Origin: Massospora cicadina
Lineage: Eukaryota > Entomophthoromycota > Entomophthoromycetes > Entomophthorales > Entomophthoraceae
Length of the DNA stretch: 64,000 nt
Assembly: GCA_022478985.1 (NCBI GenBank)
Contig: JAKSZP010008005.1
Coordinates: 120,838 to 184,837, forward strand
Direction of reading: 5' to 3'
This document shows, piece after piece, positions 7,390 to 59,893 of the stretch. The notes below the pieces were generated by a model. The model saw nothing but the letters and a program-made list of their open reading frames with translations, was not told the origin of the DNA and searched no databases. Both the position numbers and the translations under genes were made by a program. How positions within the stretch are numbered: position 1 is the stretch's first letter; every line of letters starts with the position of its first letter.

Positions 7390-8340
7390 CCATCCTTTGA
7401 AACTTTAAGTCTCATAAAATCCATTTATGACTGCAATAAGGAGCACTTTGAAGGTTTGAGCTTTATTAAAGCCTTCCAAGACAATAGAAGACTTTCTGGA
7501 GGTGTTCCACATGACCATTGAAACTTTAAGTCCCATAAACTCCATTTCTGACTGCAATAAGGAGCACTTTGAAGGTTTGAGCTTTATTAAAGCCTTCCAA
7601 TACAATAGAAGACTTTCTGGAGGTGTTCCACATAACCATTGAAGCTTTGGAAGAAATGTTGTTATCATCAATGTATATAAGGACACAGGATAGCTTCAAG
7701 TCCCCAAGGATCCCGTTAATGGCGCGTTAAAAGGTGGATGACGCGTTACAAAGGCCCTGGGGTATCCTTGTGGGTTTGAATAGCCCCTTGTCGGCTATGA
7801 GTGCACAATTGGATAAGTCTTTGGGGGCGATATCAACTTGCCAATATCCGCTAGCAAGATCCATTACAGAAAAGTATCTTGACCTGGCGAGCAAGTGGAG
7901 TGAGTCATAATTTGGGGCAAAGGATATCTATCTTTCTTTAAGCTGGAGTTGAGCCATCGGTAGACTATCACCACCCAATGGCTGCCATCCTTCTTTTGAA
8001 CCAACAGGAGGGGGAGGCCAAGGACTGCATGAAAGCACCAATAGTCTGGCTTTGAGTGTTGTTTGAGCTATACCGCCACCTGGGCTTCTTCAACCTTAAT
8101 TTTTCAATAAGGTTGGGACCAAAAGAGGGAGCTTCTCTAGTCTCCACATGATGTTGTACCCCACTAATTTTTTCAAAATTGTAGGTAGAGGCCAAAAAAG
8201 ATCTGAGTACTTATTTATTTGGGGAAGGTCGACTAGGGGACAAGCACTTCTGATATATGGGGATAAACTAATGAAAATTAAAATTATAAGACACCCTAGA
8301 GGGTTCACGGCCCCTTTTGTTGTTTTCTGGATTACCAAGT
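7390..8340 (-). pseudogene. Element I reverse transcriptase region, broken
   Basis: The minus strand from 8340 shows the lead-in to RT, then VVIVYRWLNSSLKKDRYPLP near 7980, a DLASGYWQV-like stretch near 7840, and the catalytic YIDD at 7664-7675. A 121-bp tandem duplication (7399-7640) lies just after the active site and shifts the frame. The segment stops abruptly at about 8397, where LINE A interrupts the element; the rest of element I resumes at about 15905. The protease expected upstream of RT was not recognised. Confidence 0.65.
7399..7640. repeat. 121-bp tandem duplication inside element I RT
   Basis: Unit 1 (7399-7519) and unit 2 (7520-7640) differ at only a handful of positions, and both start GAAACTTTAAGTC. 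The period is not a multiple of three, so the duplication itself breaks the RT frame. It encodes the segment directly downstream of the YIDD active site. Confidence 0.9.
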
Positions 8341-12247: not shown

Positions 12248-12815
12248 GCAGGAGTGCCATGTGGTCCTGCAGCTGTAGGATGGGATGCCAGATACTTAAT
12301 TAATATGTTTGAGTGATCTGGGTTTCTTAATTGGAGTGCCCGTGTGAAGTTATATCTAGATGTTCTGGCCCAGTGTGTATCTGGAAGATCTGGGCTAGTC
12401 ACCTGAGCTATCCAGGATCCTAGTATGTGGGTCGCTTGCTCTACATAATTGTTAAGCCCCATGCCTCCATTCCTTCTAGAGTCAAATAGGATTTCAAGGC
12501 GTACAGGGGGGTTGTGGTTGGACCAGAGCCATCATTGTAATAGGGCATGGATTGTGTTGAAGAAGGACGGTGAGAAAGCAATTGCATGGGCCATGAACCA
12601 TATGATTGATAGCATCATAGAGTTGGCTACCATGACCCTTCCTGTTAAACCTGTTTGGTGTCCATGTAAGGATGCAATGCGTTTTGTTATATTGTCTAGA
12701 AGTTGATTTTCCATCATGGAGTTGTCATAGCCTCCTGCTTCTAGCCATACCCCCAAGTGACGAACAGGACTAGCTGTTGGCTTAATGGTGAATGGAAGTT
12801 TCAGTGGGGTTGTTG

Positions 12816-13476
12816 CTAATTTTCGCCTCCTATGCCTGATAAGGAGTCTTGATGTTGTATTAGTTTGTTGGCCCTGGGTAGATGGCGCCCAATGGGTCTG
12901 ATATTTTCCCAGGAGTAAATTTCCGTTTTCTCAGTGTTAAGTGATGCGTTACTTATGTCTGAATAATCTTGAATTATCTTCTCAATTCTGTAAACATCCT
13001 GATTGTTGGATATGCCCACCACACAATCATCAGCGAAGGCCATCATTTTGACTGGTGGTTGGCCCTTGACGTTGATTCCCTTGAGAAGTGTGTTTGCATT
13101 CCAGATTAGAGGATCTAAGCTAAAATTGTAGAGTAAAGGGCTTAAGGGGTCTCCTTGTTTGAGTTCTCTCTGTGGGATGACTGGGTTGGTTAAGAAGCCT
13201 GCTCCCCACACAGCCATGGTAGCAGACTATGTGAAAAACATCACCCAGTCTATGAATCTATTTGGGAGCTTTATTTTTAAAACAGGTCCTAAGATAGGTC
13301 CAGTTCACCCTGTCATATGCCTTTTGTTGGTCTAAAAAGACAAGTGCTCCAGAGGTTTTAGATTGGCAGACATTTGCAATTGTGTGGATGTTATCCCATA
13401 TAGATCTTCTTAGAACAAATCCATATTGTGATGGGGATATCGCGTCAGTTGCAATTTCTTCTAGTCGTTTGGCCAT
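12816..13476 (-). pseudogene. LINE A reverse transcriptase
   Basis: The minus-strand pieces 13476-13258 and 13217-12816 contain RT motifs. Motif A region is ALVFLDQQKAYDRVNW, motif B is LKQGDPLSPLLYNFSLDPL, and motif C is MMAFADDCVVG with FADD at 13026-13037. These nearly copy LINE B. The pieces are in different frames and the connecting sequence has stops, so the enzyme is dead although the catalytic Asp pair survives. The RT tail continues to about 12250 before the element II insertion. Confidence 0.8.
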
Positions 13477-13613
13477 AATCTTTGTGAAAATTTTTGTATC
13501 TGTGTTGGTTAGGAAAATTGGGCGCCAGTTGGAAAGGTCTAGTCTGTCTCCTTTTTTGAAGAAAGTGAAAGTTTAGGCTTCTTTACCTCCAGGTAGGAGG
13601 CATGTTTCCATGA

Positions 13614-14990
13614 TCACTTATTCATTGAAGCTAGAAGAAAGTTAGAGATGTTAGAAAAGTATTCAATGTAAAATTCATAGGGAATCCCATCAGGTCCAGG
13701 GCATTTCCCTCTTGGTGCACCATTTACTACTTCCCATAACTCCTCACATGATATTAAGTTGATTAAGTTGTTATTTTGGGCTGTGGTGTCAATATTTGCA
13801 CTTCTAAGGAATTTTTCAATTTTTTCTAGTTCAACTGGCTCGGGTTTTACAATTTCATATAAGACCTGTGCACTTTGGTAGCGACTTCTTTGGGTGTTTC
13901 CACTATGGATTTGTCTGATTGATGGACCTGTGTGCAAGCTATCATATTTTTCTGGGCGTGGAATTGGCGGAAAAAGTAGCTCGAGCAAGTTTCTCTATCT
14001 CTTATGTTTTTACCTTTATATTGAACTCCAACTTGGTGTTGGTGTTCAAGGATCAGGGTGTTTAACCAAGAAGAAACCTCCACCCATTTGTGACCCCATC
14101 CAGGGCTGTACCCCATGATGGGACGTTGTTTTCTAGGTGGGTAATTTCTGCCAAGGTATGCTTGATAATGGCTGAAGCTGACCTGTTTCTTCTAAATGAT
14201 GTATGTTTGATTTTTGTTGGGTTGTTGATTTTTTAAAGCTTTTCCAGGTGTTTAGTGGGTCTGAGCAAAAATGTGTTCGAAAATCCAAGCTTGAGGATAT
14301 TTCCTCCATACAGGATTGAAATTCTGAGTTGGCTAAAATTTCTGAGCGTATTCTGCACCATCTGGGTGCTTGGGTACTTAGTTCCGCCGGTTTGTAGGAT
14401 ACTAAGACAAGCTGATGGTCAGAAAATTCGATTTTTTGTAGTTTTAAATTTTTGAATTTGGTGCGTAAAATTATTGGAGCAAGTATTAGATCTATCCTTG
14501 ACATAGAGACCAGTGTACCATTGTGTACATGTGGGCGTTTCATGTTTTATAGCAAGGGTAGCCTTTTTGGTAGTGGATCAAATAGTCCCAGGGTGGCCTT
14601 TAGTACGTGGAGTTCCACTTGCCCTTGTGGTATCTCTGTTGTGTATGGCCATTGGTCCATATCTGGGTTAATCCAGCAGTTCATGTATCCCATGATGAAA
14701 TTACTTGCTGGTAGATTTGTATTTGGCTGTTAAAAATTCTCCTTGGTCATGTGCACCATTTGGGCATACACACTGGCTATTGTGTGCACTTCAGTGTGCC
14801 ATGAGAAGGTTACGGCAAGTATGCAGCTGTCCAGGAACAAATTTTTATTGATAAATTTAAAGTTTTGGTTTTCACATACTATCACCCCACAGTGTTGCGA
14901 CCAAAACAATATTGTTGGGAGGAGATTTTTTACCCATGCCTCCTCCTCTTTTTGTGAACAGTGGGTTTCCTGCACCGCCAGGATATCCAC
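13614..14990 (-). pseudogene. LINE A APE-type endonuclease and linker to RT
   Basis: The 14990-14730 piece starts MDILAVQETHCSQKEEEAW, with the Glu of the metal-binding AVQE motif. The 14543-14133 piece has SRIDLILAP and EFSDHQLVLVSY, the conserved terminal SDH motif of APE-like nucleases. The 13988-13614 piece is the linker before RT, with GKCPGPDGIPYEFYIEYF. The enzyme class nicks target DNA for target-primed reverse transcription. Frameshifts between the pieces make this copy inactive. Confidence 0.75.
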
Positions 14991-15420
14991 AGGTGGGTTT
15001 CATAGATGACTCAACTTCATGGCCCAGGACATTAAGGTCTTGAGTCCCGCTATGTTCAGCATCCCTATCTCTACTGAGACGCCCAATGCGCCTCAGGAGC
15101 AGTTAGCAGGGCCCCAGCCCTACTCCCTCGCTCACATTGCTCTCCAATCCACCTCTTCTGCGGAGAGCATAGCCATGAGTAGGAGTTGGGGTGTAATATG
15201 CCCTTTTGTCACCGCTGTTTTTGCTCCTCTCTTGGCTTTGCTTGGTTTCAATTTATCATTGTGGTGCACTTGTGTGCTTTTATTGGCCGCATTATTTTCT
15301 TGTGCATTCTATTGTTGATTTTCCTTCCCAGTTGGGTTAAATTCTGCAGTTTTAGGGGGTGCGCTGAACCTCAGTTTTGCTGTATTCATTGCAAATCAGG
15401 TTCCGCCAAATTCAATCTGG

Positions 15421-19880: not shown

Positions 19881-22063
19881 TTTATGAGGTAAGAATTATC
19901 CCCTTTTAGTTGAGCGTATCTCAACACCCTTTTTTATGTTTATTTTCTTTAAAAGCTATTTTGATTTTACCATGAATCCCATTACCCCAAATACTAATTT
20001 TACATCTCCTTACTATACATTTTCTAAGGTTTAAAGACAAATGTCAATATTCACATAATTGTTCAAACACTGAAACTATGATAGATGATTGCATCTTGTA
20101 TTTGAACTTACATAAAACGTTTGTGTTTATATTAAGGAGAAGCAATCATGGTGTGCCCCATCATTTCTTTGCATCCCCATTATTCTAGTTACTTCATGAA
20201 TCCCTGTTAAATTTTGGGTCTGTTGCTGATCATTTCCAGAAATTAACTGCAAAGGTTTGTTTATGTGCACAATTCACGTTGCTTGATAGTATTAGATAAA
20301 TAGGTGAAAGTATTATGAAGACTATTATCTGTAGTTGAATAAATAAACCGAGTTAATTTGTATTCAACTCTAAACTTGTAATGATCTACAAAATACTGAT
20401 TATGTTGGCAATATAGGACTTCTTCCCTATCCCAGCTGAACTTAATACAATCTCAGATTAAGAGGAACCCACACTTAGTTCCCGTCACGCTGAGTCAGCA
20501 AAGATCTGCTGTATAAGGTCTGCTTCTCTTCTAAAGATATCTTATCCTTACTCTTATCCACACAAAAGAGACAAAATTTATTGTGCTATAACAATAATTA
20601 ACTGAAGATGAATAGAATTTAATAATGCTATTTGTGTTAGGAGAGTGTATGTAAGGCTCAAGTTACAGTAGAGGTGGGGAGTGAGGGCCCAACTTCTTCC
20701 TGCTATGAAACCCACCTCTGATATAAGGTTAGCAAAGTACCACCCATAAGGACAGTGCACAGAAATCTTCAAGAAAGGTGGTCACACATTTGGCTCAATC
20801 AGATCTGATAGAGGTTGGCAAAAAAGCTAAATATGTGCACATAAAATAAACAATTGGGTTTTTTTAAATAAACTAGATGACCAACAAGGAAAGTTGGTCT
20901 TGCAAAAACATACTTAACCACTGGGGGGCTTTCAATTGGCGGAAGTGGTTCTGAGCCTAGGCAAACCAATAGGCGCATGCTACTATCAGCCAGGGTCCTG
21001 TAACTCGAGATTGTCTGAACTTTAATTATAGATTCCAAATTAGCTCGTCCCAACTTCAAAATTTTTAAAAATGGAACAGGAAAAAAACCCTGTTCCTCAA
21101 ATTACTGTTATAAACTGTCAGAATTGACGATGTAGCTGGTGCGTTTTAAAGCCCCAGCTGTAATGCCAGGCTGAGCATCACGCAAATATCAAGGACCAAC
21201 CTAGGCATACCTTTCTTGTACCCAGAGTTGGTCCAGGGTATGTTCTAAGTCAGGAAGGCCTTGTAACATGATTTTTTGGCCTCCTGACGACCAGCCTTGT
21301 CCTTGCAATAAGTCCCCTCAATTATGTCATGTGGCCATGACAGTTTGCAGACTTAAAAATCTGCTTTTATTATTATAAAATGATAGGGAATTTGTAGAAG
21401 AATTCAGCGCCCAACTCCTCAGTTGGCGCCTCAGCCATGAAACAGCAGCTGTTGCCATTCAATTTCCCTGCAATTTCTCTTCCAGCGATGGCCTTCTCCA
21501 TCAGGCTAAGGATTCCTACGTTGGACATCCCATAGACCTGATAATGGAAAAGTCCAGAAAACATGTCCCTAACTTTCTGCTCAATCACAGTGAACCAACC
21601 ACATTTGGCTAGTGACCTGCTTAGGTAATGGAACTCTTTACCCATTATAGCGGGTCACAAACCAACTGATTTATTTGCTAGTTACAGATTGCATCACTTG
21701 CCTCACAACTGCTGATTAAATTCCCAATCAGTTGGTGATGAAACTTGACTGATACCAATCAATGCACCTAATAGCTAATCAACAATCAACTATCAAATGC
21801 CTTGATTTTGTTGGCAACTATTCCAATGAGATCTTAAGCATTTGCACGGGTTGATCCCTGATAAATATGGACCTGGAAAATTACCTAAAAATATGCAGAC
21901 ATCATAAAGCCAAAATCAAGATCAGTTAATATTCAATTTATTCGCTAGTGGGACTTATCACCTAGAAAACCAGCAGATAGCCTAGGAATCTGAAAAGTGG
22001 GCAAAAATCCCAACACTCCCTCTCTTTCCTCCTTAGCAAAAATTTAGGGAATATCCTGCAGCA
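19881..22063. other. AT-rich interval between element I and X3
   Basis: No gene is supported. A 90-codon minus-strand frame at 21645-21373 (MGKEFHYLSRSLAKCGWF) has no recognisable motif and no partner exon. A small inverted-repeat-bounded sequence lies at 21112-21346. Otherwise the DNA looks unique and noncoding. Confidence 0.45.
21112..21346. mobile_element. Possible MITE-like element, 235 bp
   Basis: AAACTGTCA at 21112-21120 is the exact reverse complement of TGACAGTTT at 21338-21346. Inside, GGACCAAC and GTTGGTCC form a second inverted pair. No convincing target duplication flanks it and no second copy was seen in the window, so the call is tentative. Confidence 0.25.
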
Positions 22064-30200: not shown

Positions 30201-30251
30201 TTTTTTTTTTTTTTTTTTTTTTTGGGGAGAGTGACAGGCTTTCAGCCTGTC
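30201..30251. repeat. T23 tract followed by a perfect 8-bp hairpin
   Basis: Twenty-three consecutive T at 30201-30223, then GGGGAGAGT, then GACAGGCT-TTC-AGCCTGTC (30233-30251), a perfect inverted repeat with a 3-nt loop. It sits exactly at the 5' end of LINE fragment C. Confidence 0.85.
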
Positions 30252-30698
30252 TAGAAAAATCTTCGCCTTTTCCATGTTCTCCCCTATCCACCCTTTGCTC
30301 CACGCCTTAAGTGATGCACAGCACTATGGATGATCCACACTATTGTCCTGATACCTCTGGCACTCCCTACCCTCCATGAAGCTGTGCAATGATTACATTC
30401 CCACCTCACAGATCATTTCCAAGCCTGGTTGTTTGGCCAACTGCCATCCTGCCAACGCCTGTTAGCCATCCTGCGTTCCATCTTGGCTTTCATGGACCCC
30501 TTTCCTTCACTCATGTTCAGTTTGTCCCATCTCCCCTGACACTCCCCCTTCCTTCCACTGGCAGTCCTGCTGGCAACAGGAGTTATCTTCAGCTCTTCTG
30601 GGGTGCAGCTCACTTTTCTTGAGTTTGGTAGTTGGTAGTTGGTGCTTATCAGAAGTGTCCATTCCCTGGTCAGCCTTCCCTGAATAAAATTTAAATTT
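30224..30698 (+). mobile_element. LINE C: 5'-truncated LINE 3' fragment, plus strand
   Basis: The plus strand aligns with the 3' ends of LINE A and B. Near 30280 TCTATCCACCC parallels LINE A ORF2. Near 30575 GGCAACAGGAGTTATCTTCA parallels GGCAACAAGAGATAGCATCG in LINE B. CCCTGGTCAGCCTTCCCTGA precedes an AATAAAATTTAAATTT tail, as in LINE B. Only the last 470 bp of a LINE are present. It is opposite in orientation to LINE A and B. Confidence 0.7.
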
Positions 30699-31160
30699 GA
30701 TTATTCTTAAAATACTTTTTAATAAATTAATCAAATTTAGATTGATTTACATTCCTTAATTTAATAAGGTGAATTTTAAACTGGTTTTACACATATAAAT
30801 CATACTTAAAAATCCTAAAAATAAACAGTTTTTTATGTGACTACAAATTTTGAACAGAACCTCCATGCCAAATTTCCAATTTCTAGATTTTATAGTCTAT
30901 GAGAGTCCTAGATTAATAGTGACTTTTTATATATAGATAAACAAATAGGAATGCCAAATTTGATTATCAAAGAATAGGGTAAGTTAACTGCCATATGGTT
31001 CTAAGTGATTACATAGTTAAATAAATTAGCATAAAATTATTATAGCATAACTCTATACTGCATATTATTATAAGAAAGGCATTGCTGACTGGTTATCAAA
31101 AAGTATAATTACAGCTGGATGTCTTTCAAAACTTAGAATCTAATTCTATAATTTTTTTCA
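30699..31160. other. AT-rich spacer between LINE C and LINE B
   Basis: Very AT-rich with no open frames. I see nothing else in it. Confidence 0.5.
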
Positions 31161-31258
31161 TATAATCAATTAATTACTTTAAATTTAAATTTAAATTTAT
31201 TATGGGAAGGCCGACCATGGGACGGACACTTCCAAATATGACTCAGACGAGGCAAAAC

Positions 31259-31960
31259 TTAGTACCAGGAGTAACCCCAGAGAAGCGATGCTATCTCTTG
31301 TTGCCAGCGGAAACGCCACTTATGGGAAGGGGGAGGAACGTGTGTAGGGGACGTAGCCACTATTGAGCACGTGTGGAGGAAGGGGTCTGATTTGATGAAC
31401 CAGACTGGGAACCAGGAGAGACCAGCTGTCAGCGACGTGGTGGGAGATATCCAAACATCCACGCTTGAAAGTGATCCACCAATGAGACCGGAATCTGTGG
31501 ACAGCTTCAGGTGGGGAGGGTGGGGGATGGATCCGGCGATGGCATCCAAGACAATCGTGTGGATAGTCCACATGGCGATTGCAACCACCAGAGCACGAAG
31601 GGAGGGTGGGAGGGGGGAGGCCATTGATGAAGCAAACATATCTCTTGACAGACTGAAGGATGTGTTGGATCCTGGCCTAGCAGACGTTGGACTTCGCGCC
31701 ATATTACTTTAGAGGTGGGGCACTTCTCCAGGCGGTGAAACAGCGTTCCATACTGGCCACACACGACACAGGATGAGTGTAAAGCATTAGAGCGCTCAGT
31801 TGTACGGTACACCTGCCTCAGGCAGCGCTGGACACATGGGAGCAGACTTGAGGCTGCAACAGAGGATGGTGTGCATATTTCCAGATAGTCTTTTGGGTCT
31901 CAGTAGAATAAGGGATGTCCATCATGTCCAGGTAGTCCACCCCTGGATAGGACTTGGGGT
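31259..31960 (-). pseudogene. LINE B ORF2 C-terminal zinc-finger domain
   Basis: The frames 31812-31507 and 31702-31259 contain CVVCGQYGTLFHRLEKC (C-x2-C-x7-H-x4-C) followed by PTSKVIWREVQRLLGQ, the typical zf-RVT arrangement. A C-terminus with SLRALVVAIAMWTIHTIVLD follows. It is in a different frame from the RT body. A zinc-binding tail like this is thought to bind RNA or target DNA in LINE proteins. Confidence 0.75.
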
Positions 31961-32050: not shown

Positions 32051-33626
32051 CTAATACAAATTCTCCACCTGCGCTTCGCATGGAGAGTAGGATTCGTTTG
32101 TAGGGTTTTGGTCCCGTGAGGACCTGTGGCTGATGTGTGTGATGCGAGGTATTTCATCAGGGAGTGGGGTTTGATGGATTGTTGAGGCCCAAGGCTCGGG
32201 AGGAGTTGGAGCAGGCCGCGTGGGACCAGTGTTGGGATGGGAGTGTAGGAGCAGTGACAGCCGCAATCCAGGTGCCCAGGATCTTGGCGGCATGGGCTTT
32301 GAAGTCAAGTAGGCCCATGCCACCTGATGATGAGGGCCAAACATGACCTCTAGCCGTACAGGTGGAGGGCGGCCTGACCTAAAGCCAGCCTTGTAGCAAA
32401 GCATACAGGGATTTGAAGAAGCGTGGGGAGAAGGGATGGCGTGGGCTCCGAACCAGACTTTGGATAGGAGCATAGAGTTGGCAAGAACAACCCTGCCAGT
32501 GAGGGTAGTAGGGTGGGCTCTGAGAGAGGCTATTCGCTTCGTCACGTTGTCCAGTATATGGCACTCCATTACTGCTGACGCGTATCCACCTGCCTCCAAC
32601 CACACGCCCAGATGGCGTACCAGTCCTATGGTAGGTCGTGGCACAAAGGGGAGCACCAGTGGAGCGGTGTGTTTTGAGTTAGTAAGGCGTGGGACATGGG
32701 CGAGCAGATGGCCGGGTTGGGAACTACTTGCTGGGGCCCAGCAGTTCTGAAACCGACTAAGGAGGATGATTTCAGTTTTGGAGGCGTTCAGTGCCGCGTT
32801 GCTTACCCGGGAATATTCCTGGATGAGGGCTTCAAGCGCGCGTGCATCTTTGTTATTAGACACCCCCACCACGCAATCATCTGCAAATGCCATCATCTTG
32901 ACTGGGGTTTGGCCTGGCACATGGACCCCATTGAGTTGGGCATTCACATTTCGCAGTAGTGGGTCAAGGCTGAAGTTGTATAAGAGTGGGCTCAGGGGGT
33001 CCCCTTGTCGCAGGCCCCTTTGAGGATGGACTACTTCCGTTAGGAAACCTGGGCTGCGCACTGCCATTGTTGCAGATTCCGTGAGCAGCATCACCCAGTT
33101 AATGAAGCGGGGAGGTAGGCGGAATTTTGGAGGCAGGCCCTAAGGTATTCCCAGTTTACTCTATCATAGGCCTTTTGTTGGTCCAAGAATACAAGTGCCC
33201 CAGAGGCTGTGGACTGACACACATTAGCCACAGAGTGCACGTTATCCCAAATTGACCTTCTGGGGATGAAACTGAATTGTTCTGGGGAGATGGTGGCAGA
33301 TGCTACAGTCCCTAAATGGTTAGCCATGATTTTTGTTAAAATTTTGGTGTCTGTTTTTGTCAGAGAAATGGGGTGCCAGTTGGCTAAGTCTAGCCTATCC
33401 CCTTTCTTGAAGAGTGTGACCGTAAAGGCCTCATGTCCTCCTGGTAGGAGGCGCGTTTCCAACAGGCTTTGGTTGAGTGAGGCTAGCAGCAATGGGGATA
33501 TATATTTAAAATATTTTTTGTAGAACTCATATGGAATTCCATCTGGGCCTGGGCATTTTTGGTTTGGCGCACCGCGAATGGTAGTCCATAATTTGTTTAA
33601 GTAATTAAATTCATTATTTCTGGGTA
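32051..33626 (-). pseudogene. LINE B reverse transcriptase
   Basis: Two overlapping frames carry RT. 33492-33091 has FTVTLFKKGDRLDLANWHPI, RRSIWDNVHSVANVCQ and motif A ALVFLDQQKAYDRVNWEYLR. 33094-32051 (347 codons) has motif B GLRQGDPLSPLLYNFSLDPL and motif C MMAFADDCVVGVSN, with FADD at 32876-32887, then a long thumb and connection. All catalytic Asp are present. One frameshift sits near 33091. A GPDGIPYEFY-type lead-in is found at about 33500-33560. The enzyme copies LINE RNA at the nicked target site. Confidence 0.85.
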
Positions 33627-34947
33627 TCAGAAAATGGTGCAGATATGAGCTCTGTCAAGAAATTCTGCCATTTTGGCCAGCTGAATTGGTTCAGCTCGGT
33701 ATAACTCAGAGTAATATCTTTGCATTTTGATTGCCACTTCGGCCAGTGTGTCCACAATAGAATTATCCGATCTTCGCACCTGTGTGCAGGCCACGCTCTG
33801 GCGAGGTGCAAATTTTTTTTTGAAGAAGTATGCGGTGCACTTGTCACCTTTAGTGATGCGTGTGGCCCTGTATTGGACACAAACCTGATGTTTGTGTTGC
33901 CTTTCAAGTGCGTTGAGATGGGCAGCTGCCTCCGCCCACTTCTGGCCCCATGCAGAGCTATATCCTGAGGCTGGAATGTTGGACTCCAAGTGGGCCAATT
34001 CTGCCAGCGCACGCGATATAACTGCCAATGTGGCTTGTGAGCGTCTGGATGAGAGATGGCGATAGTGGTGGATGGTGTCATCTTTGAAAGTTGCCCATGT
34101 GGAAATGGGGTCCGCGCAAAACGGTGCAACAAACAATTTTGCCAAAGTTGCCTCTTCCACCCACATGGAAAATCCTGGCGATGCAAGCTCTGGGGGGCGG
34201 ATTTTGCACCAATGTGGGGCCTTTGCAACTGTGACGGGTAAGTGGTATGTTATTGAGACCAGTTGGTGGTTGGAGAATTCCATTTTCATTGTTTTGAAGT
34301 GGGAGATATGGGGTTGGAATTTTGCCGGTGCTAGAATAAGGTCAATGTGGGTCATGGACCTTAATTGGCCGTTGTGGATGTGGGGACGCATCATGTTTTT
34401 TAAGCAGTGGGGCATGTCATGGCAGCACATCCATTAACCCAAGGGTGGCTTTTAGAACGTGTAGTTCTATGTGACCCTGTGGGGCGTGGGGTGAGGGCAG
34501 CCACCGGTCCATTGGTGAGGTTAGCCAACAGTTCATGTCACCAATTAGGAAAGAATTGGGGGGTAGCGGGAGGGATTTGACCAACGAGAAAAATTTTTGA
34601 CGCTCTTGTGCACCATTTGGGGTGTAAATGTTGACAATTGTGTGTGCAACATCAGCCCACGAGAAGGTGACAACGTGCACTCGGCCATCTAGGAATGTTT
34701 CTGAAGATATAAATTTGAAAGAATTGTTATTCTGAATTAGCACCTCACAGTGCTTCGACCAAAAGGATAGGGATGGTAGGAGCATTGTTTTCCAAGCTTC
34801 CTCAGAACCTCGTGGACAGTGGGACTCCTGGATAGCCAGGATATCCACGGGTAAATTGTTTTGTAAAAAACTCAGTTTCCTAGCCCGGGATGGGGAGGCC
34901 TTGAGTCCGGCGATATTCAGCATCCCTAGAGTGAAGGTTTCCCCCAT
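33627..34947 (-). pseudogene. LINE B APE-type endonuclease and linker
   Basis: 34947-34417 starts MGETFTLGMLNIAGLKA and has VDILAIQESHC (metal-binding Glu) and FLIGDMNCW (GDxN). A frameshift near 34430 leads to 34430-33627 with THIDLILAP and FSNHQLVSITY, where the conserved SDH reads SNH, a damaging change. The linker contains CTAYFFKKKFAPRQSVA. ORF2 starts about 145 bp after the ORF1 stop. It nicks target DNA; the 18-bp TSD fits an APE-type staggered cut. Confidence 0.85.
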
Positions 34948-35092
34948 TGCACCTTAGGTGCGAGGGGTGGGCCCCCGGGCCCACCAGCCTCTTCCAGGTC
35001 CCCACGGGCTTTCACAGCAGCGCGGGTATTAGCAGCAACGCTATTAGGGTTTTTGTTAATTTTTGCAGAAAGAGTCGCATTGGCTTTGGCCT

Positions 35093-37186: not shown

Positions 37187-38825
37187 TGTCTCAGATTTGG
37201 CTGAGAAGAATTAGACTGGGTTCCCAATCAGGGTTCATGAGCGCCCAGTGGAGATCCCAGAATGCCATGGGCACAGTGGTCTTGGCGACTTGTTCAAGTG
37301 GGGTTTTATTGGAAACGTGAGGGAAGCAAAAGTTCAACAACGTACTAAAGGCCCCCAGAGAAAACCAAAATGGTTGCAATGGGGGCAACCGTGAGACTTT
37401 AGGGGCAACCCCCAAGGGCGGGGGAGGCAGGGAGGATGACAACTCCTCCAGAGTTTGCAGTTGCTGTTTTTTGGGTCTAAATAGATAAGATTGCGAGCAA
37501 ACAATGGACAGTACAAGGCCCGCCGTGTGATCACTGGTAAGAGCAGGAGGAGGATGGGGACTGCGCAGAGCATTGAGGCCAAGCTCTCCCTAGATGGGGA
37601 ACTCCATACCCCATGGGCGAGTAATGCCATTGGCCAATGGGTCAGGCAGGGGCTTCAACTCCGTGACAGTGGTGTAGGACCGCTCTGATGCTGTTCCAAT
37701 GGGGGAGCAGCTTCCACAAAGCCAACAGTGGAACGGACGGATGGATTTGCATTAGATGGATGCACAATAATGGATGAGGAAGCAGTTTTGTCATCAGGGG
37801 CGTGCTGGTTTATTATATTCATGATGCAGCGCTGGGTGGCAGGGTCAATTGATTGGATAATCCAGTTGGCGAGCATCAGAAGGAGGATCTGGGTGGCAGA
37901 GCGCTTCTTGGGATTGATTGGTGAAATTTTTAATATATAAAATAGGGCAGACGGAGGCTGCAACAAGCTGAGTGATGTTTATGAGGTTTATTGGGTGCAA
38001 CGCATGAGAGAGTAAAGAATAAATTGACAACAGCCCCTGGGCAGGGAATTTGTCTTGAAAATTAGAAAAATTGCTTAGGGGAAGTGTTACGGGATTGGTC
38101 ATTTGGGGGTTGGTGATGGGATCTGGTTGACTGGTGGGGGTGGGAGATGCTTAAGGTCCTGGAAAAAAATCAAAAAAAACTTTTATATTTTTTCCAACAT
38201 TTTTGGGCCCAAGCCAGGTTGACGGTGCCAATCTAGGCCCTGGCCACCTAAGTTAGCCTGCTCACATGATTCAAATCCCTTTAGGTGTCCTGGAGGGTGT
38301 GGCGGATGAGCTGAGTTATTTGGGATCTAGTCTGACATCTTGATTGGCCTATTTGCATGATCCAAAATTCCTGAATTTCTCCCAGAAACTTGAAGTGACT
38401 AATCTGAGTCATTCAATGCCTGGTCTGAGATCTGAATTGTGCCCCATTTTGATTTTTGGTGCCAGCCAGTCAAGACCAGCTCCCTCAGGCCAAATTTGCA
38501 TACTGGGCCCTGAGGTTGCCACAGGCAATTTCTTCCAAATTTTGGCATAATTCTCCTGTGGAGTGGGGGGTCCCAGGGGCCTGCCCATGACCCCTGGCTT
38601 GTATGAACTCTCTGCAGACCCCATCTATCAACCTCAACAGGGTTGAGGAGGGGGAAGAGGTGGGAACAGGGTTTTTGGGGGGAAGTGCGGTCACCAGTGC
38701 TCATCTACCACGTGCGCCAAGTCACTCAACTGCAACATAGGGTCCACTTTGGCCTTAGGGCCTTTTTTGTTCTGAAGGATTATCGCTCCCTATCCAGGAG
38801 TAGGGGCTGGTCTCCAGGACTTATA
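37187..38825 (-). repeat. Element V left LTR (3' LTR), uninterrupted
   Basis: The 1639-bp LTR starts TGTCTCAGATTTGGCTG and ends CAGGACTTATA (decayed from TTACA). It aligns over its whole length with the three pieces of the right LTR, at roughly 85 percent by eye. It preserves the empty target sites of IV (ATGAG, 37237-37241) and III (GCTGG, 38806-38810). Confidence 0.9.
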
Positions 38826-38930
38826 CTACCCTTTCCTTTTTCAACCGGGAGGATTCTCCCACCTGGGGCATGGACCAGGGAATAGTTTTTGTGCCTCTCT
38901 GGGAGCTTTATGACAAGGATGGCAGCAATA
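38485..38930 (-). pseudogene. Element V post-pol ORF reading into U3
   Basis: On the minus strand the frame runs AAILVIKLPERHKNYSLVHA, PGGRILPVEKGKGS (the last residues encoded by the purine tract), ISPGDQPLLLDRER, then after a frame break LQLSDLAHVVDEHW and, after another, VCREFIQARGHGQAPGTPH. The same peptides occur in the right LTR (53881-53546: LQLSDLAHMVDDHWVT). Elements IV and III have matching sequence at the same place. The function is unknown. It lies in U3, hence at the 3' end of the genomic RNA. Confidence 0.6.
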
Positions 38931-46125: not shown

Positions 46126-46180
46126 TGTCATGTATTTGGCTGATAATAATTAGACTGGGCTCCCAATCAGGGTGTGTAAG
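46126..46180 (-). repeat. Element V right LTR, first piece
   Basis: 55 bp matching the start of the left LTR (TTTGGCTGA-AATTAGACTGGG), ending at the insertion of element IV. The last five bases GTAAG are the TSD of IV. Confidence 0.85.
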
Positions 46181-46237
46181 TGTAAGTCCAGGGAACGTCC
46201 CCTTTTTGTGGACTAGGTGATTTTCCCATTCCCAAAT

Positions 46238-46926
46238 ATGAAGGGTCTGAAGAGGGCAGCTGTACCCCTTGTCACCCAAGGCGACCTCTCCCATGTGGTA
46301 GATGAGCGCTGGATAACAGTGCAACCTCTGAAGATTCCTTTCTTGGTTCCTGCGCTTGCCACTGCTGAACTAGTTCACCAAATTGAGGAAATCTGCGCCA
46401 AAATCATTGGTAACCATCTTCCTCACGAGTGGGAGGGACTTTACAAAACTGTTGGCGTTGAATCCTCAGAATCAAAGCCAAAATCGTCCAAATCTAATGG
46501 AAATAAAGTCTGACGGACAGAAACCCAATATTCAAAAAAAGACAAAAAGTGAATTATCAGCTGGAATTGCAGACAACATCAAGCCATTGAGTAGTACAAT
46601 TTCTGATGTCAAAGTCTCCTCAAAATCGCTGGGGATAATCCATGAGCAGAAACTCCAAGTTCAAAAATCAGGATTTGCGCCCAACGCAACTCACTTGGCC
46701 AAACAAATGCCCCAGCAACTGGGCACTGGAAGGTTGGCTATCCCAAACCCGTTTCCAACCGTTTGGTACTGCCCCTATGTGGGGTGGCCCTGGGGGATTC
46801 CCATTTCCCGTCAGGCCAGACACCATTGTGCCAACCAACATAAACATAGTTGAGCCTCAGTCCAGGCGTTCATGGAGAAACAATAGTGAATTGGCCTGCC
46901 TCCAAATCCTTCAATGTCAATTCTAA
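46238..46926 (+). pseudogene. Element IV U3-encoded ORF (5' LTR copy)
   Basis: The frame starts MKGLKRAAVPLVTQGDLSHV, then VDERWITVQPLKIPF, ATAELVHQIEEICAKIIG and NHLPHEWEGLYKTVG, and ends in a Ser/Lys-rich stretch before a stop at 46511. It continues in shifted frames (46383-46853 with LSAGIADNIKPLSSTISDV, then 46642-46926). The original protein would have been about 220-230 residues from this ATG, and longer when read from the internal region of the 3' copy. It ends before the predicted RNA start. No known family was recognised. The DLSHVVDERW motif recurs in elements III and V. Confidence 0.6.
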
Positions 46927-47020
46927 TTAAAACTTATACTCCCCCTCCCCCAAAAATTCGCCAGGTTAGGTTAAATTTTAGGGCCTCAATCCCTGCTTTG
47001 ACCCACTACTAATTGAACAC

Positions 47021-47063
47021 TATTTAATCAGTTGCATCGCACTGAGAAAATTTTTGGTCAATT
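47021..47063 (+). promoter_or_regulatory. Element IV TATA box and self-primer sequence
   Basis: TATTTAA (47021-47027) would place the RNA start near 47050. TTGGTCAATT at 47054-47063 is exactly complementary to AATTGACCAA at 47363-47372, directly after the LTR. In Tf1-type elements the first bases of the RNA fold back on the primer site in this way. Confidence 0.5.
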
Positions 47064-47361
47064 TTCTTTATTTATCTTTCCAATAAAACCCTTTACCCAA
47101 TTACAGTTTTTATGCTCAAAACTAAACCGCCCTTTCTGCCTATATTTCAACAACCCATGGGGCTCTTGGCCAAGTTTCCCTGGTACTTTGCTAGACTCTT
47201 ATACACAATTATGGCTCATTGGCACTAAATGGATAAATACCTTCCTGGTTCCATAACTTTCGTCCCAGCAGCAGTGCCAATGGCATTCAAGTTTGGCGTT
47301 TGGGTGATTTAGCACTTAAACTGGAAGGCTATTCTCAAAATAACTTGCTGTTTGCATGACA

Positions 47362-50766: not shown

Positions 50767-51087
50767 TTGGGCAATGGTGCTTTCTGGTTAAAGTTGCTAT
50801 CTCAATGGAAACAGCACCCCGTCTTCCATGTATCTCAGTTGTCCTCATTCAAGGGGACTGTCCCTGCGGATCCTGAGCCAATAGTATTTGAGGATTCAGA
50901 GGAAGTCAAGGCGGAAAGCTTTTTAGCATCCCACAAATCTTGGAGGTCAGTTCAGTATCTCGTCGCTTGGAAGGGCTATCTGGCCTATGAGAACAGTTGG
51001 GTCAAGGACTGTGATTGCGTAAACTGCATGGAACTGGGCGAGGCGTTTAATGAGTCCCATCCCAATGCTCTGCATCCACCTCCCTAA
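50767..51087 (+). pseudogene. Element IV integrase C-terminus and chromodomain
   Basis: The 106-codon frame reads HPVFHVSQLSSFKGTVP, then EVKAESFLASHKSWRSVQYL, VAWKGYLAYENSWVKDCD and MELGEAFNESH. This is a complete chromodomain pattern with YLVxWKGY and the second Trp. It stops at 51087; the next frame opens with ATG at 51105. Confidence 0.85.
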
Positions 51088-51104
51088 AGTAAGTTGCAAC
51101 TTTG

Positions 51105-51329
51105 ATGGCGATCGAGTTGCCCAAGGCGCACAAAAATGTAGCCCTTACACAGTTTCCCGATGGAGGTGCCCCTCCTTTGGCAAAAGGAAAGGGTAATGTA
51201 AGTCCAGAGGAATTTCCCCTTTGCATGGATTGGGCAATTTTCCCATTCCCAAATAAGAAGGGTCCAAAGAGGGCAGCTGTACCCCTCATCACCCAAGGCG
51301 ACCTCGCCCATGTGGTAGATGAGAGCTGA
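51105..51329 (+). pseudogene. Element IV post-pol ORF crossing into the 3' LTR
   Basis: The ATG at 51105 opens MAIELPKAHKNVALTQFPDG, GAPPLAKGKGN (the last residues encoded by the purine tract), VSPEEFPLCMDWAIFPF and AVPLITQGDLAHVVDES, then a stop that replaces the Trp of the 5' LTR copy. It begins 17 bases after the pol stop and runs without a break across the tract and LTR edge at 51197. Beyond the stop the homology with the 5' LTR copy continues. Position and layout are like nef or sag of retroviruses; homology to those is not implied. Confidence 0.65.
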
Positions 51330-52372
51330 GTAACTGCACTCCCTCTGAAGATTCCTTCCCCAGTTCCTATGCTTGCCTCTGCCAAACTAGTCCATGAATT
51401 GAGGAAGTCTATGCCAAAATCATTGGTATCTATCTTCCTCACAAGTGGGAGGGACTTTAAAAACTGTTGACAGCAAATCCTCAGAATCAAAGCCAAAATG
51501 TATAAATTCAATGGGAATAAAGTCTGATGAGAAAGAAAACCAATATTCAAAAAAAGACAACTAGTGACTTATTAGCTGGAATTGCAGACAACATCAAGCC
51601 ATTGAGTAGTACAATTGCTGATGTCAAAGTCCCCTCAAAATCATTGGGACAAGCTTTAATGAGCAGAAACCCCTAGTTCAAGAATTAAGATTTGCGCCTG
51701 ATGCAACTCACTTGGCCGAACAAATGCCCCAGTGACTGTGCATGGGTGGGTTTACCATCCTGAATCCATTTCCAACCAATTGGGACCGCCCTATGTGGGG
51801 TGGCCCTGGGGATTCCCATTGCCCATTAGGCCAGACGCCATTGCACCAACCAATGTAAACGTTGTTGAGCCTTGGTCCAGGCGTTCATGGATGAGCCAAT
51901 AGCAACTTGGCCTGCTGCTGAATCCTTCAATGTCAGTTATAATTAGAATTATCCTCCCCTCCCCCCAAAATTCGCCAAGTTAGGTCAAATTTTAGGGCCC
52001 AAATACCTGCTTTGACCCACTACCAATTGAACACTATTCAAGCAGTTGCATCGCAATGAGAAAACTGTTGGTCAATTTTCTTTATTTATCTTTTCAATAA
52101 ATCCCTTTACCCAATTCCAGTTTTTATGCCAAAAGTAAACCGCCCTTTTCGCCTATATTTCAACAACCCATGGGGCTCATGGCCAAGTTCCCTGGTACTT
52201 TTCTAGACTCTTATACACGATTATGGCTCATGGGCACTCAATGGCGAAATACCTTCCTGGTTCCATAACCGTCATCCCAGCAGCAGTGCCATTAGCATTC
52301 AGCTTTGGCGTTTGTGTGCTCCAGAACTTAAACTGGCAGGCCAGTCTAAAAATATTTTCTGTTTGCCTGATG
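51197..52372 (+). repeat. Element IV 3' LTR (1176 bp)
   Basis: Starts TGTAAGTCCAGAGG directly after the purine tract and ends TTTGCCTGATG, decayed from GACA. The primer-complement region reads GTTGGTCAATT here (about 52068), 11 bases complementary to the primer site. Confidence 0.9.
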
Positions 52373-53945
52373 GTGATCATCCAGTGGAGAGCCCAGAATG
52401 TCATGAGCACAGCGGTCCAGGCGACTTGTACAAGTGGGGTTTTATTGGGAACGTGAGGGAAGCAAAAGCTCAACAACATACCAAAGGCCCCAGAACAAAC
52501 TAAATGGTTGCAATGGGGGCAACTGTGAGCCTTTTGGGGCAACCCCAAGGGTGAGGGAGGCAGGAAGGATGACAACTAATCCAGGGTTTGCAGTTGCTGG
52601 CCTTTGGGTTTAAATGGATAAGATTGCGAGCAAACAAGGGGTGGCACAAGTCCCACCGTGTGATCACTGGTAAGAGCAGGGGGAGGTTGGGTTTGCGCAG
52701 AGCAATGAGGCCAAGCTCTCCCTGAACAGGGCACTCCAGATCCCACAGGTGAGTGAGGCCATTGGCCAATGGGTTAGGCAGGGGCCCTGACTCCGTAAAC
52801 AGTGAAGCAGGACCACTCTGATGCTGCTATAATGGGTAAGCAGCTTTCACAAAGCCAACAGTGAAATAGACGTATGGATTTGTTTTAGATGGATACACAA
52901 TAATGGATGAGGAAGCAGCTTTATCATCAGGGGCATGCTGGTTTAATATATTCATGATGCGGCACTAGGTGGCAGGGTCAATCAATTGGATTATCCAATT
53001 GGTGAGCATCAGAACGAGGATCTGGGTGGCAGCGCTCTTCTCTGGGTTGATTGGCAGAATCTTTATTGTAAAATAGGGTGGATGGAGGCTGCAACAAGCT
53101 GAGTGGTGTTTATGAGGTTTATTGGGTGCAAAGCACAAGAGAGTAAAAGAATGAACTGACAACAGCCACTAGGCAGGGTAGTTGTCTTAAAAATGGGAAA
53201 ATTTCTTGGGGGAAGTGTTATCAGATTGGTTATTTGAGGGTTGGCAATGGGATCTGGTTGGCTGTTGGGGTGGAGGGTGGGGATTCTCAAGGTCCTGGCA
53301 ATAATAAAAAAACTTTAATAAATTTTCACACATTTTTGGACCCAAGCCAGGTTGACAGTGCCAATCTGGGTCCTGGCCACCTAATTTAGCCTGCTCACAT
53401 GATTCAAATCCCTTTATTTGTCCTGGAGGGTGTGGCAGATGAGCTGAGTTACTTGAGATCTGGTATGACATCTTGATTGGTATATTTGCTTGATCTTAAC
53501 CTCCCAAATCTCTTTGGTACACCTGAGGTGACTGGTCTGAGTCATTCAATGCCTAGTCTGGTATCTGAATTTTGCCCCAATTTGATTTTTGGTGCCAGCC
53601 AGTTTAGACCGGCTCCCCCAGGCCAGAATTTGCAGACCAGGCCCCATGGTTGCCACAGGCAATTTATTCCAAATTTGGCATAATTCTCCTGGGAAGTGGG
53701 GGGTTCCAGGGGCCTGCCCATGGCCCCTGGCTTGCACAAACTCTCTGCAGACCCCTCTATCAACCTCAACAGGGTTGAGGAGGGGAAAAGAGGTTGTAAC
53801 AGGGTATCCTTGGGGAAGTATGGTCACCCAGTGATCATCTACCATGTGTGCCAAGTCACTTAACTGCAACAGGGGTTCCACTTAGGCCTAAGAGCCCCTT
53901 TATGTCCTGAAGGGGAATTGCTCCCTATCCAGGTGTAGGGGCTAG
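52373..53945 (-). repeat. Element V right LTR, second piece
   Basis: Matches 37237-38810 of the left LTR. It begins with GTGAT, the right TSD of IV, and ends with GCTAG, the left TSD of III. It contains the U3 coding region on the minus strand (53881-53546). Confidence 0.9.
53546..53881 (-). pseudogene. Element V U3-encoded ORF (right LTR copy)
   Basis: A 111-codon open frame reads PLLQLSDLAHMVDDHWVTIL, then VCREFVQARGHGQAPGTPH and GELCQIWNKLPVATM. It is uninterrupted here although the left LTR copy has two frame breaks in the same region. No known domain was recognised. Confidence 0.55.
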
Positions 53946-54793
53946 TGTCATGTTAAATAACATGATAGTGGGTACCAACCTCAAAGATAAGGCTGGGCAA
54001 CAGGAGGCCCAGGTGAAGCTTCAGGCCCTCCCTGATCTCAGGCACACAGTAGACCAACGCTGGGTACAAGCCAAATATGCCCAGGTTGGTACTAGTGAGG
54101 TGCCTAACGCCCAGCCCCTTGCATCAGCCCAGGCATTAAAACGGACGCTTTACTTAATTAATGCACAAAGTTCAATTTGGTTAGTTGAGGAACAGGGTTT
54201 TGTACCCGTTTCATCTATGAAATCGATGCATCTGGGTCAAATACAACTTCAATTGATTAATTGAGTGAAGCCAATGTCAGTTTATTCTACCATTTCATAT
54301 GGGAGTGTTTGCCTATTGGTAAATCGGTGCCTGAGACTAATTTGGCAGACCCCAAGTTACCCCAACGAAGTTTATATTTGATTTTCAGGACCAACATTCC
54401 TTGTTGTTAAACTTTTCCCAATAAACTTCCCCATTTTTCCTATTCTATTTTATATTATCTCTGACAATCCTATGCGCGGACCTCTTTGAGGAGGTCTCGC
54501 GCTACATTCACCATACCATTTTACATACAATATAGTTAGCCCCTAGGCACCATTGGTTCACCTAGGCTCCCTCCAACCTGGGATGCTTACCCCTTTCCCC
54601 TTTGTGCACCTTATCACTTTTGGTTGGGTATTTTTTTATAATGATCACACTCCTTTACTCAAGTTATTATTGCTACAGCACCCTCTTCTGGGCTCTAGTA
54701 CCTTTCGTATTAATGGCTAGTTCCCTGGCGTTAGACCTGTGCACCAAGCACTACTACTCTGGGAACAGGAGAGTTATAGACACTCTCCTTACA
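53946..54793 (+). repeat. Element III 5' LTR (848 bp)
   Basis: Starts TGTCATGTTAAAT and ends CTCTCCTTACA. A U3 ORF (53950-54264) precedes a TATA-like TTTATATTT near 54370. Confidence 0.93.
53950..54264 (+). CDS. Element III U3-encoded ORF (5' LTR copy)
   Basis: A 104-codon open frame begins at the fifth base of the LTR: MLNNMIVGTNLKDKAGQQEA, then LQALPDLRHTVDQRWVQ, SAQALKRTLYLINAQSSIW and GFVPVSSMKSMHLGQIQL. The 3' LTR copy is open over the same length and differs by a 3-base insertion that keeps frame. PDLRHTVDQRWV parallels the motif in IV and V. It ends about 100 bp before the TATA-like sequence, so it is confined to U3. In the provirus it would be expressed from the 3' copy. Confidence 0.55.
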   Translation: MLNNMIVGTNLKDKAGQQEAQVKLQALPDLRHTVDQRWVQAKYAQVGTSEVPNAQPLASAQALKRTLYLINAQSSIWLVEEQGFVPVSSMKSMHLGQIQLQLIN

Positions 54794-58622: not shown

Positions 58623-59000
58623 GTGGGCCATGCCTCATACCAGTTAGATCTTCCTTCTTCATTTTGGATCTTCTCTGTCTTTCATGAGAGCAGATTGATG
58701 TTGTTTGAGGGCCCCCCACCAGAGACTCCTAAGGCCTATCTTGTGGATGGGGTGCCAGAGCGGGAAGTGGAAGAGATAGTAGACTCCCAGCATGTTAAGA
58801 GAAGACTTGAGCACCTGTTATCTTGAAAGGGCTTTGACACTGCAGAGAACAGTTGGGTCCCAGCGCATGACTGTGTGCATGCCTAAGATCTGATTGAAGC
58901 TTTCTATAAGCGTTTCCCCCAGGCCGCTGGATCTCAACCTAAACTGACTGTTGCTGCAATGAAGTTGGCCCAGCCCACAAGAATTTTTCCCCTAGCGCAA
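58623..59000 (+). pseudogene. Element III chromodomain and pol tail
   Basis: 58623-58826 reads SYQLDLPSSFWIFSVFHESR and VPEREVEEIVDSQHVKRRLE. After a stop, KGFDTAENSWVPAHDCVHA and DLIEAFYKRFP complete a chromodomain. The same frame runs on as LTVAAMKLAQPTRIFPLAQA, PGGG, stop, APPGGKGS into the 3' LTR. This tail parallels LVIKLPERHKN...PGG in V and AIELPKAHKN...DGG in IV. Confidence 0.75.
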
Positions 59001-59041
59001 GCCCCTGGAGGGGGTTGAGCCCCGCCAGGAGGAAAGGGTAG

Positions 59042-59893
59042 TGTCATGGTTAAATGAAATGATAGTGGGTACCAACCCCAAGAATAAGGCTGGGCAACAG
59101 GAGACTCAGAAGGTGAAGATTCAGGCCCTCCCTGATCTCAGGCACACAGTAGACCAACGCTGGGTACAATCTAAATATACCCAGGTTGGTACTAGTGAGG
59201 TGCCTATCGCCCAGCCCCTTTCATCAGCCCAGGCGTTAAAATGGACATTTTACTTAATTAATGCACAAAGTTCAATTTGGTTAGTTGAGGAACAGGGTTT
59301 TGTACCCGTTTCATCTATGAAATCGATGCATCTGGGTCAAATACAACTTCAATTGATTAATTGAGTGAAGCCAATGTCAGTTTATTCTACCATTTCATAT
59401 GGGAGTGTTTGCCTATTGGTAAATCGGTGCCTGAGACCACTTTGGCAGACCTCAAGTTACCCCAACGAAGTTTATATTTGATTTTCAGGACCAACATTCC
59501 TTGTTGTTAAACTTTTCCCAATAAACTTCCCCATTTTTCCTATTCTATTTTATATTATCTCTGACAATCCTGTGCGCGGACCTCTTTGAGGAGGTCTCGC
59601 GCTACATTCACCATACCATTTTACATACAATATAGTTAGCCCCTAGGCACCATTGGTTCACCCAGGCTCCCTCCAACCTGGGATGCTTACCCCTTTCCCC
59701 TTTGTGCACCTTATCACTTTTGGTTGGGTATTTTTTTATAATGATCACACTCCTTTACTCAAGTTATTATTGCTACAGCACCCTCTTCTGGGCTCTAGTA
59801 CCTTTTGTATTAACGGCTAGTTTCCTGGCGTTGGACCTGTGCACCAAGTACTACCACGCTGGAAACAGGAGAGTTATAGACACTCTCCTTACA
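59042..59893 (+). repeat. Element III 3' LTR (852 bp)
   Basis: Starts TGTCATGGTTAAATG after the purine tract and ends CTCTCCTTACA. About 35 differences from the 5' copy were counted roughly by eye. Confidence 0.93.
59059..59364 (+). CDS. Element III U3-encoded ORF (3' LTR copy)
   Basis: The frame MIVGTNPKNKAGQQETQKVK continues to QALPDLRHTVDQRWVQSKY and LGQIQLQLIN, then a stop. It is open upstream across the LTR edge to about 58996 (KPLEGVEPRQEERVVSWLNE), although that reading differs from the pol-tail frame. This is the copy that would lie at the 3' end of the genomic RNA. Confidence 0.5.
   Translation: MIVGTNPKNKAGQQETQKVKIQALPDLRHTVDQRWVQSKYTQVGTSEVPIAQPLSSAQALKWTFYLINAQSSIWLVEEQGFVPVSSMKSMHLGQIQLQLIN

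Follow-up and report, generated by a model that had tools for sequence, protein, structure and literature searches.

Lentiviral nef and MMTV sag are separate genes that have their own start and overlap the 3′ LTR. Among plant chromoviruses, the Gag-Pol frame of the CRM elements of group A is described, in the available text of two reports, as crossing the polypurine tract and ending inside the 3′ LTR (PMC3059260, PMC3605345). The accessible sections of the second report also describe Bingo1-4 and Bingo7 of Beta vulgaris, in which an ORF reaches into the 3′ LTR and, as in the non-CRM clades, the chromodomain precedes the tract (PMC3605345). The arrangement that we describe below is probably this extension into the 3′ LTR, already known from plant chromoviruses, found here in a fungus and with a distinct post-chromodomain tail.

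The window that we analysed, a stretch of 64,000 nucleotides from Massospora cicadina, contains an element, IV, whose 5′ LTR (46181..47356, plus strand, starting TGTAAG) and 3′ LTR (51197..52367, plus strand) were delimited by self-blast and by inspection of the sequence. According to self-blast, the two LTRs are 85.0% identical over 1190 columns (46176-47359 versus 51193-52370), and element IV is therefore an old insertion. The end of pol, with a chromodomain, occupies 50908..51060 of the plus strand, as judged from the translation and from an excess of third-position diversity in the pol frame (codons starting at 50848+3k). The pol stop, TAA at 51085-51087, falls within a C/A homopolymer junction (51066..51092, plus strand) that was hypervariable among 40 aligned copies. 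Seventeen bases later, an ATG at 51105 opens a frame of 74 codons (51105-51326) that spans the polypurine tract AAAAGGAAAGGG (51182..51193, plus strand), which encodes KGKG, and the LTR edge (TG at 51197) before terminating at TGA (51327-51329). The first-pass annotation had reported both the 17-base gap and the unbroken passage through tract and LTR edge, and both were confirmed. We refer to 51096..51326 (plus strand), which contains this frame and consists of an internal part and the first 43 codons of U3, as the post-chromodomain tail of pol.

Homologous tails occur in two further elements of the window. The families are named IV (element IV), III (the minus-strand element) and V (the element at 53.9-59.9 kb), the last two numbers being swapped relative to those of the first-pass annotation. 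In the family III element, whose 3′ end lies near 38911-38815, the tail occupies 38636..38911 of the minus strand; it carries VIKLPERHKN, meets the LTR edge at about 38815 and, in a 30-row alignment, ends at a family-level stop at 38636. In the family V element, the internal tail (58871..59041, plus strand; AAMKL...) contains a variable G run (59010-59014) before the purine tract. From the LTR edge at 59042, a U3 frame containing DLRHTVDQRWV covers 59042..59480 (plus strand), as judged from a scan for stops and from third-position excess. The matching peptides of the first-pass annotation, namely VIKLPERHKN, AAMKLAQPTR and DLxHxVDxxW in U3, are thus present. Its GGKGS and DLRHTVDQRW of the family V element are present as well, but they lie in different frames, and the GGKGS register stops a few codons into U3.

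The window holds other repeats. A fourth family, a relative of the 59-kb element, is represented by an LTR at 20841..21342 on the minus strand; the U3 of this LTR encodes LQGLPDLEHTLDQLWVQERYA, and the U3 peptide LPDLEHTLDQLWVQERYA is similar, in a broken frame. An LTR-length stretch between element IV and the 53.9-kb element (52374-53949) is 84.5% identical to the family III LTR (37238-38814) and looks like a solo LTR. Segments 12254-15115 and 32111-34975 are related copies (62% identical), the latter with matches to reverse transcriptase and endonuclease on the minus strand, which indicates LINE-like elements. The window further contains a 1.4-kb imperfect palindrome (30241-31657) with a 60% match to its own reverse complement, and a tandem duplication of 121 bp (7394-7635; 95% identical).

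We searched the genome (1.47 Gb, 16,968 contigs) for copies and aligned 40 rows for family IV, comprising the window copy together with every one of the other 39 genomic places, and 30 rows each for families III and V. The elements have LTRs at both ends and a purine tract next to the 3′ one, and copies of families III and V encode an integrase followed by a C-terminal chromodomain; these features are those of Ty3/Gypsy chromoviruses. In a Pfam search, the translated copy L088 matched PF24626 (E 6.5e-15) and PF00385 (E 2.5e-12). PF00385 was also matched by L052 (E 3e-12), L050 (E 4.5e-11) and L090 (E 8.6e-13), and fell below the cut-off in L072. The chromodomain of family IV was judged by alignment; L015, the sole fragment of this family submitted to Pfam, begins downstream of the domain and had no match. 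Among six translated copies, none had a confident Pfam match in the tail.

The tail frame is protein-coding. In family IV, third-position diversity over 51105-51390 was 0.208, against 0.147 and 0.128 at the other positions (p = 0.0004; 40 rows), a pattern like that of the chromodomain, which served as control in the pol frame. Smaller pieces of this region gave p = 0.019 (51105-51190), p = 0.066 (U3 51198-51330 alone) and p = 0.011 (51331-51460), and short windows within U3 were often not significant. When U3 was considered by itself over longer stretches, each family had a third-position excess in one frame: p < 0.00005 in family III (184 columns), p = 0.006 in family IV (262 columns, 51198-51460) and p = 0.012 in family V (439 columns, 59042-59480). 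For the internal tail alone, the corresponding values were 0.13, 0.006 and 0.02. Mean levels of diversity are biased because the queries contained the tail and the rows are their best matches; the comparison among phases should not be.

Comparison between families led to the same frame. On columns common to most copies, the tails of families III and IV align without gaps. Net dN/dS, calculated as between-family less within-family divergence, was 0.22 in the tail frame (87 codons) and 0.93 and 1.41 in the other frames; for the U3 part it was 0.18 (51 codons) versus 1.01 and 1.41, all these corrected values being rough because synonymous sites are near saturation. The uncorrected net pN/pS was 0.53 for the tail (interval 0.39-0.72) and 0.50 for its U3 part (0.32-0.72), and 0.15 for the chromodomain control in the pol frame. 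For family V, 35 codons yielded a net pN/pS of 0.47 (0.29-0.73) against family III and 0.51 (0.27-0.86) against family IV; for the 18 U3 codons alone, the values were 0.52 (0.25-1.03) and 0.70 (0.29-1.54), respectively, with intervals that reach past 1. Overall, these data demonstrate that purifying selection acts on the tail frame both before and after the LTR edge, and that the frame is conserved between families. They also answer a concern raised in the first-pass annotation, which had proposed dN/dS as a check on whether the shared peptides merely reflect a nucleotide signal that is conserved near the purine tract and the start of U3. The tract and the LTR edge are conserved cis signals, and within-family diversity is low around them, though the copies had been selected with queries covering that stretch. 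Nevertheless, substitutions concentrate at synonymous sites in one frame only, including in U3 by itself, and protein similarity to an independent relative, P0002, extends over about 95 residues. We regard a nucleotide signal alone as an exceedingly improbable source of these peptides.

The 3′ limit of the frame in element IV is peculiar to few copies. At the position of its TGA, 30 of 40 rows have TGG and seven have a stop; 13 rows are open over 51096-51345, with neither a stop nor a net frame shift. A further coding tail in U3 is probable at 51330..51460 (plus strand), where there is third-position excess and most rows have TGG instead of TGA. Beyond 51460, no signal was detected in the tail phase of family IV; another phase, one of three tried, gave p = 0.02. 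The continuation of about 220 residues proposed in the first-pass annotation for the 5′ LTR copy is therefore confirmed only in part, the coding signal of this phase ending at about 51460. In family III, periodicity is absent beyond the stop at 38636. In family V, no stop in one frame was present in more than 25% of the 30 rows from 59042 to about 59340, where the scan ended. An antisense ORF of 167 codons (window 51047-51550, minus strand) overlaps the tail, and in 22 rows of family IV two antisense frames over the tail are also mostly free of common stops. This openness is probably a by-product of the composition of the coding frame.

In some copies, the tail is read continuously with pol. 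Without any editing of the sequence, 12 of the 40 family IV copies, 7 of 30 of family III and 3 of 30 of family V can be read from the end of the chromodomain beyond the LTR edge, for at most 97, 81 and 107 codons past it, respectively, and some of them for only a few. Individual copies read 97 (L015), 92 (L017), 81 (L052), 63 (L050) and 107 (L088) codons past the edge. The last of these has 444 stop-free codons that run from the integrase core through the chromodomain and the tract into U3. In decayed copies of all three families, then, the pol frame continues over the tract and the LTR edge. In family III, a single third-position phase extends from the chromodomain into U3; on columns common to most rows, no pol-frame stop between 39165 and 38636 occurs in more than 25% of rows, and 25 of 30 rows stop at 38636.

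To identify homologs, we searched with L088 and obtained 582 proteins. Among the best 120, 119 covered 36-68% of the query and one, P0002, covered 88%. P0002 is a single ORF of 578 aa on a single metagenomic contig of 4026 bases from ENA. It contains, in order, an integrase, a chromodomain, LLAIKLPKAHKNFAL, RGKG at the position of the tract, DLGHVLDERWV and 60 further residues. Over 95-97 columns, its tail is 44% identical to that of L015, 42% to L052, 43% to L050 and 33% to L088. The tail of P0002 is presumably located in an LTR as well. Against 5.8 billion proteins, within the limits set on sensitivity and length, the sole match to this tail was P0002 itself, and a scan of viral contigs with P0002 returned no match. 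AlphaFold, run on P0002 with an eight-row alignment, gave a mean pLDDT of 37, too low to be informative about the fold. A homolog search with the 3′ end of pol of the family V element at 59 kb, whose frame is broken in this copy, returned 142 candidates, none of them at E ≤ 0.001. The C-terminus of P0058, an M. cicadina protein, resembles the family V sequence at the end of pol and in the U3 peptide (93 identities in 158 columns, with 40 gaps); P0058 is a published gene model that fuses a WD40-repeat protein to family V pol/U3 sequence. Through this model, the U3 frame has already entered the annotation of the host.

The first-pass annotation had interpreted the frame of element IV as a gene of its own at the 3′ end of the genomic RNA, like nef or MMTV sag. 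An ATG of the 51105 type occurs in 38 of 40 rows of family IV; in family V, 28 of 30 rows have one, placed about a codon further downstream. In 22 of 40 family IV copies, the tail is not in frame with pol, as a separate gene would allow. However, the aligned codon is CTT, CTG or another non-Met codon in all 30 rows of family III and encodes Leu in P0002, and the homology among the families and P0002 begins upstream of the ATG. Nor does pol generally end before the tail: a pol-frame stop is present at the junction in five of the 40 family IV copies, one of them the window copy, and absent from 35. A TAA at the position of the window copy's stop recurs in three other copies, in the pol frame in one of them. 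Neither end of the ORF described in the first-pass annotation is therefore a shared feature, given these 35 copies and the frequent TGG at its terminator. The gene appears separate in the window copy because of a change in length of the C/A homopolymer and a TAA that is absent from most copies; chromodomain and tail are read without a break in some copies and in P0002. A separate accessory gene at the 3′ end, starting at an ATG of its own, is accordingly very unlikely.

The register of the tail relative to pol raises another possibility. In family IV, the tail is in frame with pol in 18 of 40 copies and displaced by +2 in 13 and by +1 in nine; in another family (30 rows), the register at the LTR edge matches that of pol in 12, with 10 and eight rows in the other two. 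In all three families, a homopolymer run of variable length, of C/A or C in two and of G in the third, lies at the junction of pol and tail or just before the tract. Such a run could act as a site of programmed slippage or as a contingency site, yielding two integrases, one that ends near the tract and one that carries the U3-encoded tail. Family V is suggestive in this respect: pol ends, for whatever reason, before the LTR edge in 20 of 30 copies and at the edge in seven, yet the U3 frame stays open with a codon-phase signal. If so, a hypermutable or recoding run would decide the end of integrase in several chromovirus families of an early-diverging fungal lineage, and a targeting module encoded partly in the promoter repeat would be switchable from copy to copy. 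Against this, the offsets fall in each of the three registers rather than following a single fixed shift, and P0002 requires no shift. Homopolymer indels are expected in nanopore R9 assemblies. The published assembly of M. cicadina was built from nanopore R9 and Illumina reads and, in the text available to us, comprises 1.488 Gb in 19,694 scaffolds with 41.13% GC and 92% transposable elements (PMC9584336). Nanopore homopolymer errors combined with decay also explain the family V data. We consider a recoding switch unlikely, if less so than a separate gene.

Together, the data make it very probable that the tail is a C-terminal extension of the Gag-Pol (integrase) frame of these Ty3/Gypsy chromoviruses that runs into U3. 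After the chromodomain, the predicted protein would continue with a proline/lysine-rich linker and a conserved block of ~35 codons (AIKLPxxHKN...APGG...); the frame would then cross the polypurine tract, encoding KGKG, and the LTR edge, and terminate about 60-100 codons inside U3. Judging from the reading frames, Gag-Pol may be translated through the tract into the U3 of the genomic RNA. The tail would remain on integrase, C-terminal to the chromodomain, and the two could together choose or engage target chromatin. Several observations sit less easily with an extension of pol. Only 18 of 40 copies have the tail in frame with pol, and the registers match in 12 of 30, against one third by chance. 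In family V, pol ends no later than the LTR edge with the two commonest lengths of the G run, and one of the three copies of 30 that pass it does so by two codons. The ATG is retained in most rows of two families, and two of the smaller tests are weak (U3 51198-51330, p = 0.066; family III internal tail, p = 0.13).

Like the CRM elements of group A, as far as these are described in the available text, the M. cicadina elements have a gag-pol frame that enters the 3′ LTR, so that U3 doubles as coding sequence. They differ in what that part encodes: in CRM it is the CR motif, or targeting domain, whereas here a Pfam chromodomain lies upstream of the tract, which sets these elements apart from group A, and U3 adds a further tail. 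The Bingo elements, as covered in the accessible sections, are closer in that their ORF extends into the 3′ LTR with the chromodomain upstream of the tract; the host kingdom differs, and the likeness is one of ORF arrangement. The overlap of coding sequence with the 3′ LTR is shared with nef and MMTV sag; unlike those genes, the present frame is continuous with pol, and the families do not share a conserved ATG. Plant LTR retrotransposon aORFs likewise provide coding capacity beyond the standard gag-pol domains; according to the available text, however, those are additional ORFs (PMC7264820), whereas the present case is an extension of pol. Our literature search yielded no fungal case of a gag-pol extension into an LTR, and none is reported in the accessible text of PMC3248453, PMC2864245 or PMC12477816; in the portion available of the last, the phrase 'extends into' concerns sex chromosomes and not an LTR arrangement.

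The U3 stretch of these abundant elements is protein-coding and selected, and their LTRs are therefore not purely regulatory DNA. Gene models and repeat libraries in which pol stops at the LTR edge drop a conserved segment. If the tail helps in the choice of integration site, it would be a testable candidate explanation for the expansion of these genomes.
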